A stretch of 64,000 bases of DNA from Hyphomicrobiales bacterium. GTDB taxonomy: Bacteria > Pseudomonadota > Alphaproteobacteria > Rhizobiales > JAJFHB01. The stretch spans positions 310,001 to 374,000 of the forward strand of contig JAJFHE010000033.1 in NCBI GenBank assembly GCA_021775755.1, written 5' to 3'. Of the stretch, positions 26,537 through 32,663 are shown one piece after another (the first letter of the stretch is position 1; every line of letters begins with the position of its first letter). The notes beneath the pieces are model-generated. The model did no database searches. It was not told the origin of the DNA and saw nothing but the letters and a program-made list of their open reading frames with translations. A program made the translations under genes and the position numbers.

Positions 26537-26914
26537 TGTCATCCGCGGGCTTGACCTGCGCATCTCCGGCCGCTCACTGAGCGATGACGTCAAAAAGATC
26601 CAACCAGTCCGGGTTTTCTTTTTCGATCAGCTCCACTTTCCATAGCCGGGGCCAGTGCTTGACATTTTTCTCTCGCTGGATCGCCTGAGACATTTCCTGA
26701 TGCTGTTCAAAATAAACAAGCCGCGCCAGATTGTAGCGCCGGGTAAAACCGTCACACCGGCCGCTGCGGTGCTCGTGCACGCGTCTCACAAGATCGCTCG
26801 TCACGCCGACATACAAAGTGCCGTCCTTGCGATTGCTCATGATGTAGGCACAGGGTGATTTCACACGTTCAGCGTGCGGACACCAGATGCCTGTGTCAAG
26901 CACGGGCATGACGA
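26537..26914. repeat. Repeat unit, copy 1 (contains the GIY-YIG gene)
   Basis: The unit starts with a REP-like palindrome (TCATCCGCGGGCTTGACC...), holds the GIY-YIG gene on the minus strand, and ends with a second palindrome, ATGCCTGTG/CACGGGCAT (26887-26909). The same order of sequences, with most of the gene missing, is found at 26997-27133. The paired ends suggest the unit moves or duplicates as a piece. Confidence 0.55.
26574..26864 (-). CDS. GIY-YIG nuclease-superfamily protein
   Basis: A 96-residue single-domain protein of the UPF0213-like GIY-YIG group. The motif pair is AYIM...GTLYVGVTSDL (about residues 5-24), followed by RRVHEHRSG with the conserved Arg and His, and a glutamate in YFEQHQEMSQAIQREKNVK. 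GTG 26864 is chosen because family members begin with KSPCxYI; the frame is open for 25 more codons upstream, but that part translates the flanking repeat palindrome. The biochemical role of this small family is not settled. It sits inside a repeat unit, see the duplicated copy. Confidence 0.8.
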   Translation of the reverse strand: MKSPCAYIMSNRKDGTLYVGVTSDLVRRVHEHRSGRCDGFTRRYNLARLVYFEQHQEMSQAIQREKNVKHWPRLWKVELIEKENPDWLDLFDVIAQ

Positions 26915-26996
26915 ATTTGGATAGCGCAGAGCCCTCCACTTTTGAGCCTCGGATCGTACAACTACGAAATCTCCCTGCACCTCACGCCTTTAATCG

Positions 26997-27133
26997 TCAT
27001 GCGCGGGCTTGACCCGCGCATCTCCCGCAGCTCACCGAGCGATGACGTCAAAAAGATCCAACCAGTCCGGGGTTTCCTTTTCACCCAGCGTGTGAACAGC
27101 AGATGCCCGTGTCAGGCACGGGCATGACAAATT
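26997..27133 (-). pseudogene. Vestigial second GIY-YIG repeat unit with internal deletion
   Basis: Between the intact GIY-YIG gene and the DMT gene, 367 bp hold no intact gene. Here 27032-27081 nearly repeats the 3' end of the GIY-YIG gene (coding for EKETPDWLDLFDVIAR against EKENPDWLDLFDVIAQ), but it joins directly to sequence matching the gene's upstream end (27090-27133, including the palindrome ATGCCCGTG/CACGGGCAT at 27103-27125). About 230 bp in between are missing relative to copy 1. It is a deletion remnant of the same unit. Confidence 0.65.
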
Positions 27134-27231
27134 TGATTGTTGGCGGGGACTGCGACGGCCTGAAGGTCCAGCGCCTTGCCACAAGACGGGCACTCCCGTT
27201 TGACGATTTAATGTGAAGGTGCAGCGTGCAG

Positions 27232-28116
27232 CTAGCTGCCTGCCGGCTTCCTGCTCACCAGTGCCACTCCCGCCAGAATGAGCGCTGCTCCGAGATACTC
27301 CCATGGATCGATTTCCTCGCCAACCAGAAGCACCCCGATTATCAAGGCAACCACGGGAGGGATGTAGGCGACGGATGAGGCGGACACGGCGCCCAGTTTT
27401 TCGATGATGTAGTAGTAGATGATAAACGCCAGTCCAGTTCCCAGTATGCCCAGCCCGACAACGAGGCCGGCGGCGATATAGGCGTCGCTCCAGATTTCGC
27501 TGATTCCCTGCAGGTCCGTGATCAGAAACAGAACGAGCAGGCTCAGTCCCAATTGATACGTGATCAGCGCGGAGAAGGGTATGTTGAGGGGTATGACGTA
27601 CTTTTTGGCGTAGACGAACGAGGCGCCAACGCCCAGCGAACCCATGACGTTATACAGGACGCCCTCAATGTTCGTGGCAGCGATGTCGCCGCTGAGCGGG
27701 CGGGCGATCAGGAGAACGCCAAGGAACCCAACTGCAATGCCCAATGCCCTGTAAGCGGTAGCCTTTTCATCATCGAGCAGCATCAGCGCAAGAAGAAAAG
27801 ACAGGATGGGCGTCAGCCCGCTCAAGGCGCCGGCAACACCTGACAGCAACAGGGATGAACCTTTGGCAAACCCATAGTAGTAGGCGATCGTGCCAACCGC
27901 GGCCATGACCGCGAAATGGCCAACGTGCTTGATGTGAGCCCGGCTGAATGCACTTTTGTAACAGGCGTAGAGGGCGACAGGCACCAGACCGAACAAGACT
28001 CTAAGCAAAACGATTTGCAGCGGAGAGATGAGCTCGGACGACGTTTTCATGTAGATGAAGCTGCTGCCCCAGATAATCCCGAGCAACCAGAACATCGCCA
28101 ATGGCAGTGCTTTCAA
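27232..28116 (-). CDS. EamA/DMT-superfamily transporter
   Basis: A 294-residue inner-membrane protein with ten predicted membrane segments in two EamA repeats. The first repeat opens with FWLLGIIWGSSFIYMK and the second with GVLYNVMGSLGVGASFVYAKK; the end VVALIIGVLLVGEEIDPWEYLGAALI is typical. Such proteins export metabolites. The start is TTG 28116, supported by GGAGGG six bases upstream; an in-frame GTG at 28152 would put this ribosome-binding site inside the gene. It lies 80 bp downstream of the PhyH-type dioxygenase gene on the same strand and could export its product. Confidence 0.87.
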   Translation of the reverse strand: MKALPLAMFWLLGIIWGSSFIYMKTSSELISPLQIVLLRVLFGLVPVALYACYKSAFSRAHIKHVGHFAVMAAVGTIAYYYGFAKGSSLLLSGVAGALSGLTPILSFLLALMLLDDEKATAYRALGIAVGFLGVLLIARPLSGDIAATNIEGVLYNVMGSLGVGASFVYAKKYVIPLNIPFSALITYQLGLSLLVLFLITDLQGISEIWSDAYIAAGLVVGLGILGTGLAFIIYYYIIEKLGAVSASSVAYIPPVVALIIGVLLVGEEIDPWEYLGAALILAGVALVSRKPAGS

Positions 28117-28196
28117 AGGGTGCCCTCCCAGACGGAGCTGCGCAGAACGCACGCCATTTATGAGTTCATGACTTAGAACGGTTCAGGTGAGCGCCC

Positions 28197-29090
28197 TCAA
28201 GCCACCTTCACGCCCGGCCCCTGCTTAAGACGCTCAGTTCCGGGGGCGAGCAGATCCCTGCTCGGCACACCCTCATTGTAGCCTTCGGAGATGACCTCCC
28301 AGGGATCGCGCATATCCTGCGCCCAGCCGAGAAACGGACGATGCACCGTGTAGCCGATGAGCCGCGCCAGCTCCTCCGGCAGGGTGCGCGCCACTTCCGG
28401 CGGTGTCGTCAGGTAAAAGTTCTGTTCCTGGCGCAGCCAGCCCAGGCAGTAGCCCGAGTACATGCCGATGCGCCAATCGTCGCCTGTGATATTGCGGCCG
28501 CCGCCGTGATAAGTGGAGCCGAGAAAAATGCAGACCGAGCCCTTCGGCATTTCCGCGTAGGCGACTTCGTCCTCTCTCGGCAAGCGTTCGTCGTCCCAGC
28601 GATGACTTCCCGGCACGACACGCGTTGCGCCGTTCTCGAAGGTGAAGTCGCTCAAGGCCCAGAACGCGGTGCATTCGCTTTCGCGCTCCAGCGGATGGGC
28701 TATCGGATAGAGCGCGTCGTCACGGTGCAGTTCCTGCGGTTCCTGGCCGGGACCGATGGATGTCAGCGACAAAGACGACATCTGATAGCACTCGCACCAC
28801 GGGCCCAGAACACCGTCCATGACGCCGAGCAGCGTCTTGTCGAGCAGCAGGTCGCCGACTTTGGCGGACTTGCCCAAAAGCCCGTGCACCCGCTTTGTGC
28901 GGGCGCCGACAAAGCTGCCCTCGCTGTTCGGGCGTTCTTCCAGATAGGGATCGAGCTCGCCCATCATGACCGCGACGGCTGCCTCGTCCACCAGCCCGCG
29001 CAAAATGACCGCGCCGTCTTCCTTAAGCACGTCAACGGCATCTTGCGCCGAATGCGGGGCGTCCAGATAGGTGACTTGCGGTTTGCTCAC
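28197..29090 (-). CDS. Phytanoyl-CoA dioxygenase-family (PhyH) protein
   Basis: A 297-residue Fe(II)/2-oxoglutarate-dependent dioxygenase. The iron ligands are His and Asp in QELHRDDALY (about residue 136) and the distal His in STYHGGGRNITGDDWRIGM (about 200), with an Arg nearby for 2-oxoglutarate. The superfamily includes ectoine hydroxylase, but this sequence is not an obvious EctD, and the substrate is unknown. GTG 29090 is chosen as AGGAGG lies seven bases upstream. A DMT exporter follows and an ectoine-synthase-like cupin gene lies about 500 bp upstream on the same strand, interrupted by an opposing small gene. Confidence 0.88.
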   Translation of the reverse strand: MSKPQVTYLDAPHSAQDAVDVLKEDGAVILRGLVDEAAVAVMMGELDPYLEERPNSEGSFVGARTKRVHGLLGKSAKVGDLLLDKTLLGVMDGVLGPWCECYQMSSLSLTSIGPGQEPQELHRDDALYPIAHPLERESECTAFWALSDFTFENGATRVVPGSHRWDDERLPREDEVAYAEMPKGSVCIFLGSTYHGGGRNITGDDWRIGMYSGYCLGWLRQEQNFYLTTPPEVARTLPEELARLIGYTVHRPFLGWAQDMRDPWEVISEGYNEGVPSRDLLAPGTERLKQGPGVKVA

Positions 29091-29161
29091 GGCCGTTCCT
29101 CCTGAAAATCTCCCAAGGCACACCCAGTGTCACATGATGTCAGGGTTTTGCAAAGTTCGCC

Positions 29162-29197: not shown

Positions 29198-29557
29198 ATG
29201 CTTGAGAACATTGAAACACGCCCGTCGCACGAGCCCGTCTCCGACCGTTTCCAGATCTGGAGCGGCAAGTCGGGGCGCCGATATGTGCACAACGTTTATG
29301 ACGCGGACCGCTGCCCGAAAGTCGACGATGCGATTTATCTCGCCGTCGGCAGGGCCCGTGACGGCAGCCGCCGGCCGCTTGCTATTGAAGGCGCCGCGGC
29401 ATTCGCGAGTGCGGTCCGGATGGACAACGGCCGCCGCGCCTGGCCCGGCAACGGGCGCGTCGACGAGGTGCATGTGCATCTTCTGGCGTCGACGCGCAAG
29501 TCGATTGAAAAAGTCATCGAAGACCTGCGCGCCGCGCACGATCTCTCAAAAGTCTGA
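29198..29557 (+). CDS. Conserved-looking small protein, possible SOS gene
   Basis: A 119-residue soluble protein of unknown function. It has no signal or membrane segment; the core RFQIWSGKSGRRYVHNVYD is followed by CPKVDDAIYLAVGRARDGSR and the C-terminal DEVHVHLLASTRKSIEKVIE, suggesting a small alpha/beta fold. The start ATG 29198 lies two bases past a LexA-type box and has no ribosome-binding site, so leaderless translation is likely; a TTG at 29162 would make the promoter coding. It points away from the PhyH gene and toward the cupin gene. No domain was recognised. Confidence 0.6.
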   Translation: MLENIETRPSHEPVSDRFQIWSGKSGRRYVHNVYDADRCPKVDDAIYLAVGRARDGSRRPLAIEGAAAFASAVRMDNGRRAWPGNGRVDEVHVHLLASTRKSIEKVIEDLRAAHDLSKV

Positions 29558-29593: not shown

Positions 29594-30439
29594 TCAGGCG
29601 TCCGGCCCCCGTGGCACCAGCACCGGCCCCGGGGGCACCGGCCCGCTCGGCGCGAGGGCGCCGTCGGCGTCGTGCTGCTCATCACCCGCAAGCGGCGGGC
29701 AGAACACACTTAGAATATGCAGATTCGTCCCGGCGGTAAGCAGGTGCCGGTCTTCGGGGCCGACGCAGTAGAGACAATGCGGCGCAAGCTCCCAGACCTC
29801 GCCGGTCGTGCGGTCTTCGACCCGGCCGCTACCGGCGATAATGTAGTTGGCTTCCCAGTGGTGTTTGTACCAGAGTTCCGCCTCGGTCCCCGCGTCCAGG
29901 CGAACGTCCGACAAACTGAAACCCATCTGGTCGTGTGCGGTGATCATGCGGATGCTGCGCGCCTTGCCGTTTGCCACCACAATCTCGCGCCCCTCCTCAC
30001 GCAACTCGGCGGTGCGGCGCACGAACATACGCCCGTCATTGGGCGGCACCGGCCCACTCGCCGCATAGGCGCCGTCTTCGTCATGCGCTTCATCGCCGTG
30101 CAGCGCCGGGCAGAAAACGCTGATATGGCTTGCTTCGTCGGGCACGGCGAATGTGTGGCGGTCCTTCGGGCCGACCTGATAGGCCTCGCCCGGCCGCACG
30201 GTTACAAGATCTCCCGACGTCAGGTCCGCGATTTCGACCAGCCCTGAGAATATGTAGTTCGCTTCCCAGTGGTTCTTGTACCAAAGAGAACCGGGCTCCA
30301 GCGTCCGGGAGCGGTTGAGATGCAACGAGAACCCCATACCGTGTTCGGCGGTGAGATAGCGCGCCGATTGAACCAGCCCATCCCTTATCGACCGGACGCG
30401 GCCCGCCGCCTCGATATCGGCCAGTGTGTAAACGAACAT
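29594..30439 (-). CDS. Tandem ectoine-synthase-like cupin protein
   Basis: A 281-residue protein made of two copies of an EctC-like cupin (about 1-128 and 138-268). Each copy carries LWYKxHWEANY, a Y-x-VGP-x-DRH segment and a closing FCPxLxGDExHDxDGA, as in ectoine synthase. The metal ligands known for EctC (Glu57, Tyr85, His93) match Glu59, Tyr87, His95 in copy one and Glu196, Tyr224, His232 in copy two, with identical spacing. EctC closes N-gamma-acetyl-diaminobutyrate to ectoine; here no ectA or ectB is adjacent, so a different cyclisation is possible. ATG 30439 has CGGAGC upstream. Ectoine synthases are usually about 130 residues, single-domain. Confidence 0.82.
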   Translation of the reverse strand: MFVYTLADIEAAGRVRSIRDGLVQSARYLTAEHGMGFSLHLNRSRTLEPGSLWYKNHWEANYIFSGLVEIADLTSGDLVTVRPGEAYQVGPKDRHTFAVPDEASHISVFCPALHGDEAHDEDGAYAASGPVPPNDGRMFVRRTAELREEGREIVVANGKARSIRMITAHDQMGFSLSDVRLDAGTEAELWYKHHWEANYIIAGSGRVEDRTTGEVWELAPHCLYCVGPEDRHLLTAGTNLHILSVFCPPLAGDEQHDADGALAPSGPVPPGPVLVPRGPDA

Positions 30440-30547: not shown

Positions 30548-31081
30548 CTAGCCGTACATTCGCGCCCGGACGCGCCGGTTGACCTCGGCCAGTTCGCGCG
30601 CATCGATCCCCACCTCGTGGAGATGGCAGACTGTGTTGTGGAGATATTCGGGGTTTTTGCCGGAACTGCCGCGTCCGTTGAGAACAAGCTCCGCCAGCGT
30701 GTCGATCGGAAGCCGTCCCGCATACTGCTCATGCGTGCGGTCGGCAATGTAGCAGACAGCTTCGACCTCGCCGCCCTCGCCTTCCAAAAGCTGAATGCGC
30801 CTGCGCGTCTCGAGGTAAACCGCCGTCGGCAGTTCGCGGGCGCGCAGATAGGCCATTACTTCCTTGCGCCGCGCCTGCGCCACGCGATAAGCCGTGCCGA
30901 CACAGGAGCCGCCGCGATCAAGGCCGAGCACCAGCCCGGGGCGCTCCTCCGTGCCACGGTGAACATAGGAGTAGATGCAAAGGCTGCGGTGAAGCCCGTG
31001 GATCCTCGCCCGCGACCGCGCCTCGAACTCAAACCCCGGCCGCCACATCAACGAACCGTACCCGAAGACCCACAGCGCCAT
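30548..31081 (-). CDS. chaC: Glutathione-specific gamma-glutamylcyclotransferase (ChaC-like)
   Basis: A 177-residue cytoplasmic enzyme that cleaves glutathione to 5-oxoproline and Cys-Gly. It shows the substrate-binding FGYGSLMWRPGF (residues 6-17), SYVHRGTEERPGLVLGL and a conserved acidic site near YLETRRR that would supply the catalytic glutamate. Length is slightly short of other ChaC proteins. It is divergent from the DUF2125 gene and lies 108 bp upstream of the cupin gene on the same strand. Confidence 0.9.
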   Translation of the reverse strand: MALWVFGYGSLMWRPGFEFEARSRARIHGLHRSLCIYSYVHRGTEERPGLVLGLDRGGSCVGTAYRVAQARRKEVMAYLRARELPTAVYLETRRRIQLLEGEGGEVEAVCYIADRTHEQYAGRLPIDTLAELVLNGRGSSGKNPEYLHNTVCHLHEVGIDARELAEVNRRVRARMYG

Positions 31082-32261: not shown

Positions 32262-32663
32262 ATGGTCGCCATAAAGACATCGATCAGCACACTCGCTGCA
32301 GCCCTGTTTGTGCTCATCGCCGCATCCGCATCGGCTCAGGAAGGCATCGAGCGCACCGAGCTTCGCCGCACCGACCTCACCGGCACGGACAACACGATCG
32401 TTGTCGTGACCGAGATCGTCGCCCAGCCCGGCGCCTTCATGCCGCGCCACATCCACCACGGCGATGAGTTCCTTTACATCCTTGAAGGCGGGTCGACCCA
32501 GGCTCCCGGAGAAGAGCCGAGCACCGTGCCCGCCGGCGCCACTATACATTTCCCGCGCGGCATGCCGCATGGCGGCTTCATCGTTGTCGGCGACGCTCCG
32601 CTTAAAGTGTTGACCGTGCACGTTGTCGATAAGGATAAGCCGATTGCCGAACCGGTCGAGTAA
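32262..32663 (+). CDS. Exported single-domain cupin protein
   Basis: A 133-residue protein with a signal peptide (about 1-25, ending ASASAQE) and one cupin barrel. The first metal motif is PRHIHHGDEFLYILEGG (three His and one Glu) and the second is FPRGMPHGGF. It probably binds a metal ion in the periplasm; the substrate is unknown. AGGGAGAGG precedes ATG 32262, 24 bp after DUF2125, so they may be co-transcribed. It is convergent with the dehydrogenase gene. Confidence 0.85.
   Translation: MVAIKTSISTLAAALFVLIAASASAQEGIERTELRRTDLTGTDNTIVVVTEIVAQPGAFMPRHIHHGDEFLYILEGGSTQAPGEEPSTVPAGATIHFPRGMPHGGFIVVGDAPLKVLTVHVVDKDKPIAEPVE

Follow-up and report, generated by a model that had tools for sequence, protein, structure and literature searches.

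The window analysed here, a stretch of 64,000 nucleotides of DNA from a Hyphomicrobiales genome (G000; G-numbers denote searched genomes and L-numbers loci), contains on its minus strand a gene at 29594..30439, with an ATG at 30439 and the end of the stop codon at 29594, which encodes a 281-aa tandem EctC-type bicupin, named EctC2. The Pfam family Ectoine_synth (PF06339) matches the protein in two stretches along the chain with 215.1 bits (cut-off 27), which agrees with the initial annotation of two EctC-like cupin domains in a single chain, and the NCBIfam ectoine synthase model PRK13290 reaches 221.6 bits (cut-off 128). Domain 1 (30029..30439, minus strand; residues 1-137) carries Glu59, Tyr87 and His95, and domain 2 (29594..30028, minus strand; residues 138-281) carries Glu196, Tyr224 and His232, and the alignment places both sets at the EctC metal positions, as had been proposed. 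When aligned with each other, the two domains have the same residue at 61 of 137 positions. In each of them the ligands are spaced 28 then 8 residues apart; this had been called the exact spacing of known EctC, a description that fits one of the two solved enzymes, namely S. alaskensis EctC (Glu-57/Tyr-85/His-93, 28 then 8; PMC4795551) but not that of P. lautus (Glu-57/Tyr-84/His-92, 27 then 8). At the positions of Trp-21 and Thr-40, the residues contacting the known EctC substrate, domain 1 has Val and Asn and domain 2 has Ala and Val.

Structure prediction, which had been suggested as a check, yielded an AlphaFold model of EctC2 with a mean pLDDT of 94.9 and a pTM of 0.92 that is confident except for the C-terminal tail (residues 278-281 under 50), and a fold search with this model led to bicupins in the PDB. 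EctC structures were absent among the 50 matches listed in the fold searches, an absence that carries no evidential weight; by sequence, the strong PDB relatives of EctC2 are EctC structures. Scans for promoters and terminators found nothing above chance.

The neighbouring genes named in the initial annotation were all recovered with Pfam. An EamA/DMT-type exporter (27232..28152, minus strand; PF00892, 111 bits) follows EctC2 at a distance of 1.4 kb downstream and reads the same way, the PhyH gene and an opposing ORF lying in between. Over 292 residues it shares 71% identity with the product of a gene that stands about 35 bp from a tandem ectC, also in the same direction, in L026, which gives the proposed exporter link more support than was available before and makes EamA the best-supported partner of EctC2 in the window, as judged from sequence comparison. 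Among 14 searched genomes, close copies were found only in G675 (the L026 place) and, as a broken copy away from its tandem gene, in G037; other full-length EamA matches reach at most 31% identity, also in the window's family, and no close copy was found in its relatives G038, G079 and G114. In G037, the tandem ectC (L086 7812-8624) and the close EamA relative (L115 8203-8853) are on different contigs and both broken by in-frame stops, reflecting either decay or assembly error.

The PhyH-superfamily Fe/2OG dioxygenase (28197..29123, minus strand; PF05721, 98.1 bits) has an HRD motif at residue 133, and its true start may be a GTG at 29090. No NCBIfam model matched it at E 0.001, hence not the EctD model TIGR02408 either, and a hydroxyectoine route with this protein as EctD was therefore ruled out. 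In the PDB it comes closest to natural-product hydroxylases such as DhiD, and it belongs to a larger subfamily. The nearest copies in the searched genomes, in G555 and G631, are 53% identical; these two were inspected among several copies of 49-53% identity, and no tandem-protein match was found within the 18 kb fetched around each. The PhyH protein encoded close to the L054 tandem gene shares 39% identity with that of the window. With its nearest copies standing among other genes and no NCBIfam match, the suggested link of PhyH to EctC2 has lost ground, and PhyH is a possible but weakly linked partner.

Between EctC2 and PhyH lies the opposing gene that had been noted at 29198 (29198..29557, plus strand), an ORF with coding-like third-position GC; no Pfam match was found at E 0.001, and no relative in the other fetched loci searched. 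On the other side, 108 bp upstream of EctC2 and in the same direction, is a ChaC-type gamma-glutamylcyclotransferase (30548..31081, minus strand; PF04752, 150.4 bits). ChaC was not found near the other tandem genes searched, and any link to EctC2 would be tentative. A gamma-glutamyl theme was considered and dropped, as it comprised single cases only (ChaC in the window, a type III glutamine-synthetase model in L040 and an amidotransferase in L084). Further genes of the window include a small GIY-YIG gene (26574-26939; 49.6 bits), an ORF at 27032-27304 that repeats the C-terminal stretch of the GIY-YIG gene and is perhaps a decayed copy, and, two genes beyond ChaC, a small Cupin_2 protein (32262-32663; 49 bits) whose start resembles a secretion signal by eye.

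The reported lack of ectA and ectB extends from the window to its genome, in which EctA was not found and all EctB-model matches were below the cut-off (best 165.9 bits vs 552.2). Moreover, among 13 genomes holding the tandem gene, a fragment of it or something closely related (as in G458, which carries a close single-domain relative), none had EctA above the cut-off, whereas all five control genomes, in which EctC has EctB upstream, did; weak sub-cut-off EctA matches occur among the 13, and likewise in 7 of 14 control genomes. Relatives that are ordinary EctC duplicates inside ectoine operons, which the initial annotation had named as the finding that would speak against it, were looked for and not found. 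The window genome has a further, single-domain EctC on another contig (C14:8319-8699). This solitary EctC, in L004 (7130-10566; G000:C14), has on one side a gene that by eye resembles radical-SAM genes and on the other a DmdA-like GcvT gene (382.2 bits vs a cut-off of 410).

The active-site residues were compared in an alignment of 38 tandem proteins (76 domains), 20 single EctCs from the window's order and the solitary EctC of the window genome; one single EctC (L071) was mis-cut and left out, giving 19 usable singles. Upstream EctB genes scored above the cut-off for five of the single EctCs (574-623 bits vs 552.2), and the ORF upstream of a sixth (L067) had no NCBIfam match at 1e-10; EctC2 shows 32-39% identity per domain to these five EctCs. 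In 33 of the 38 tandem proteins, both domains carry a full metal triad. The exceptions are three array paralogues (L031, L048 and L050), whose triads read KYY (domain 1) and EFH (domain 2), and two further proteins with a changed Tyr in the domain 2 triad; the KYY/EFH paralogue, one per array, is possibly a structural or differently working subunit. His-55, Gly-64 and Phe-107 are invariant in the sample, Tyr-52 is missing once, and the C-terminal lid residues are kept in the tandem proteins. On the other hand, Trp-21 and Thr-40 occur in none of the 38 domains 1 and none of the 38 domains 2, as against 19 of 19 usable single EctCs, and a Trp anywhere at positions 15-29 was found in 0/38 domains 1 and 1/38 domains 2. 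This residue table implies that the metal site is conserved, whereas recognition of ADABA is not. Two other positions were not used as evidence: the change of Cys-105 to Ser, because Ser is common in orphan EctCs, and position 38, because it varies among single EctCs.

In S. alaskensis EctC, the W21A and T40A variants are described as retaining 26% and 12% activity, respectively, at normal iron content (about 89%; PMC4795551). Trp-21 is reported to be kept in 437 cluster EctCs and also in 145 orphan EctCs, where it is in some cases displaced by two residues; the iron-, substrate- and product-binding residues of these orphans are mostly conserved (PMC6344544), so that the tandem proteins differ from the orphan set. 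Tandem proteins are not alone in having lost Trp-21 and Thr-40: in the alignment, the window genome's solitary EctC (L001) carries Ala and Ile there and yet is grouped on the single-domain side of the tree.

In a single scan of genome contigs, based on match spans and ORF calls, both EctC domains were present at 41 of 49 loci; the remaining eight (L053, L055, L056 and L058-L062) are single-domain, partial or at contig ends. According to their records, the carriers belong to Alphaproteobacteria, Gammaproteobacteria, other Proteobacteria and Candidatus Binatia/Binatota, and are mostly metagenome-assembled genomes; at least two are named strains, Dongia deserti SYSU D60009 (L017) and Taklimakanibacter lacteus SYSU D60012. 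In the window's class, at least 7 of 385 whole genomes (G000, G409, G675, G600, G511, G555 and G631) match most of both domains, a lower bound because at most six candidates were scored per genome. Among the four genomes of the window's family, complete tandem matches were found in G000 and G038 (two in the latter), a domain-2 piece in G079, and single-domain matches only in G114, which is 61% complete. A tblastn search of plasmid records matched 118 of them, all below 60% identity, and both query domains fell on one gene-sized stretch in the 15 matches listed. The closest relative of EctC2 is L014 (73% identical), which is on the same contig as L083.

A tree was built, with few columns, from the 76 tandem domains together with 20 rows of single-domain proteins, of which two are identical, and all tandem domains were placed on one side of a 100/98 branch, opposite the single-domain EctCs. 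Domains 1 and 2 do not form two clean clades, their labels requiring 4 and 3 changes. A recent local duplication was ruled out, since the tandem form is common to relatives in many genomes and the domains group by family; a single ancient fusion may lie behind the tandem form. EctC2 thus belongs to a distinct family of tandem EctC-type proteins. No description of tandem EctC was found in the literature, mainly open-access, on fused, bicupin or orphan EctC or on EctC paired with Rieske or aminomethyltransferase genes, and fused EctC is not mentioned in the passages of PMC5924519 and PMC6344544 that discuss solitary EctC. A second kind of two-domain EctC protein was noticed in L088 (7119-7949; G145), with similar frames in L089 (G172) and G194:C11, in which the N-terminal half has neither the Tyr nor the His ligand and the C-terminal half has Phe for Tyr-85 and keeps Thr-40. 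In L088 the gene is followed by others for a Lys/Orn monooxygenase, an IucA/IucC synthetase, a WelO5-type Fe/2OG protein and an MFS protein, and the place looks like a siderophore locus.

Pfam analysis of 119 hand-picked neighbours of the tandem genes gave Rieske (10), Ring_hydroxyl_A (10), DAO (8), GCV_T (7), TauD (6), AstE (6), PhyH (4) and EamA (3). The tandem loci were put by eye into 28 syntenic groups, which are not independent, and neighbour distances were taken from iterative seed searches; a rough density control covered PhyH, GCV_T and Ring_hydroxyl_A (250, 262 and 263 matches, respectively, in about 54.9 Mb of 12 genomes). In 11 of the 28 groups, at least one gene of the Rieske, GcvT and PhyH types stands no more than 3 kb away, compared with 10.5% expected (rough P about 7e-5), and none of the three was found within that distance in the other 17. 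Taken separately, Rieske genes occur within 1.5 kb in 6/28 groups (rough P 4e-5) and GcvT genes within 0.6 kb in 4/28 (rough P 7e-4). Co-occurrence of tandem EctC with PhyH, which had been suggested as a check, was seen within 3 kb in only 4/28 groups (rough P 0.016). Rieske and GcvT-type neighbours are thus more frequent than the rough genome-density control predicts, with the caveat that catabolic genes cluster in general and that the window itself has only PhyH of the three.

Side-by-side tandem genes were found at several loci: two in L027, four each in L016, L020 and L048, five each in L023 and L050, and six in L031, with some copies partial and some contigs ending inside the array. The L031 and L048 arrays adjoin AstE-like genes, a small cupin and a GcvT-type gene; the L050 array adjoins AstE-like genes, a small cupin and a Rieske gene. 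In Dongia deserti, oxidase-GcvT fusions flank the tandem gene on both sides. On the whole, the company of the relatives looks degradative rather than solute-making, and the combination of demethylases and deacylases suggests, as far as neighbours can indicate, N-methylated or N-acylated amino compounds as substrates. In L084 (4759-9345; G038:C336), the surroundings of a tandem ectC include an M24 gene resembling DoeA (211.3 bits vs a cut-off of 575), a PhyH gene that matches EctD weakly (35.9 bits vs 336.5), a gene of the glutamine-amidotransferase type and what looks by eye like an amino-acid ABC transporter.

Based on these sequence comparisons, EctC2 is probably not an ectoine synthase, and the tandem proteins seem, on balance, to form a family of their own, bicupins that derive from EctC without being ectoine producers. 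A different enzyme, which databases would mislabel as ectoine synthase, is favoured because residues that grip the precursor are lost and many relatives have neighbours that look degradative for methylated amino compounds. What stands of the earlier interpretation is a tandem protein with two intact metal sites, outside an ect operon and in genomes without EctA; its PhyH link is weak.

Each barrel would bind a divalent metal, probably Fe2+, which, together with the conserved Tyr-52, His-55, Glu-57 and the C-terminal lid, might polarise an amide or amidine carbon in the way known from EctC. Either the substrate or the attacking group would differ, because the residues positioning the alpha-amino nucleophile of N-gamma-ADABA are gone; water could open a ring or amide, for instance, or another amine could close a ring, and a small N-methylated or N-acylated amino compound would be an example of a substrate. 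EctC is described as having side activities, namely minor hydrolysis of ectoine and its analogues and formation of ADPC from glutamine (PMC4795551), and such a site can therefore work in both directions. The tandem chain may stand in for the EctC homodimer, while in the window EamA would probably move the substrate or product and PhyH may modify either. Only tentatively, then, can it be proposed that these two-metal bicupins open or close a ring or amide during the breakdown of N-methylated and N-acylated amino compounds, alongside Rieske/GcvT demethylases and AstE-like deacylases, in which case the arrays of up to six paralogues would imply a multi-step pathway or a multi-subunit complex.

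It is unlikely that EctC2 instead belongs to a biosynthetic route whose product is an amino-acid-like solute or signal, cyclic and perhaps hydroxylated, which EctC2 would make, PhyH hydroxylate and EamA export. Besides the EamA copy adjoining the tandem gene in L026, this route is supported by Fe/2OG genes beside other tandem genes: a PhyH gene in L084, TauD types in L028, L032, L041, L045, L047 and L054, and, on the contig of the closest relative (L083), a convergent HalD-type gene about 300 bp away (PF23169, 46.6 bits) with an HxD motif. Such a motif would mark a hydroxylase rather than a halogenase. However, the window PhyH is not EctD, its nearest copies in other genomes stand away from tandem genes, an opposing ORF separates the parts, and the most recurrent partners of the family are of degradative types.

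Less likely still is a lyase acting on onium compounds in the manner of the cupin DMSP lyases, with Tyr as the base, next to DmdA-/GcvT-type demethylases that would act on these substrates too. In the PDB, the family profile finds the DMSP lyase DddK (E 0.0044, 19.5 bits) next after EctC, and some GcvT neighbours are of the DmdA kind; this match is weak, though, and may show only the cupin fold, and the ligand set is that of EctC. It also appears very improbable that EctC2 is a true tandem ectoine synthase using N-gamma-ADABA from other organisms, as proposed for the orphan EctC of Pseudomonas syringae, for which an uptake precedent is described in PMC5924519. The curated ectoine synthase models are passed and the metal sites are intact, but the residue table, with Trp-21 and Thr-40 absent family-wide, and the missing EctA led to a low rank for any ectoine synthase, canonical or orphan. 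A protein that binds a metal or ligand but is devoid of catalysis, as the three array paralogues with ligands lost in both domains might suggest, is the least probable of all, given that both triads, Tyr-52, His-55 and the lid residues are kept in EctC2 and most of its relatives.

EctC has been treated as the diagnostic enzyme of ectoine producers (PMC5924519). The tandem family passes the curated cut-offs for ectoine synthase without the two substrate residues and the pathway, and automatic annotation would therefore call non-producers producers. In addition, the question of orphan EctC function gains a tractable form, with a residue signature, recurrent partner genes and named-strain carriers. 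If the catabolic reading is true, it would point to a degradation route for methylated amino compounds with a ring or amide chemistry not known before.

Several known systems resemble EctC2 in part. DddK (5tfz) is a single cupin, whereas the tandem proteins have two barrels, and its weak profile match may reflect chance or a fold-level likeness. Two barrels per chain are found in the bicupins YxaG quercetinase (1y3t), (S)-ureidoglycine aminohydrolase (4e2q), YlbA (1rc6), DR1152 (1sfn) and EF2996 (1sef), to which EctC2 is similar with Z of 19.9-22.5 and 9-12% identity, a likeness of fold only. The orphan EctCs described in PMC5924519 and PMC6344544 are likewise EctC relatives outside ect clusters; their substrate residues are mostly conserved according to PMC6344544, whereas those of the tandem proteins are not and the chain is double. 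Compared with EctC itself (PF06339, PRK13290; 5bxx, 5onm, 5onn, 5ono), a single domain of about 130 residues, EctC2 has two barrels in 281 aa, lacks Trp-21, Thr-40 and an accompanying ectAB, and shows the identity per domain given above, while sharing the cupin barrel, the Glu/Tyr/His ligands, Tyr-52, His-55, Phe-107 and the C-terminal lid.
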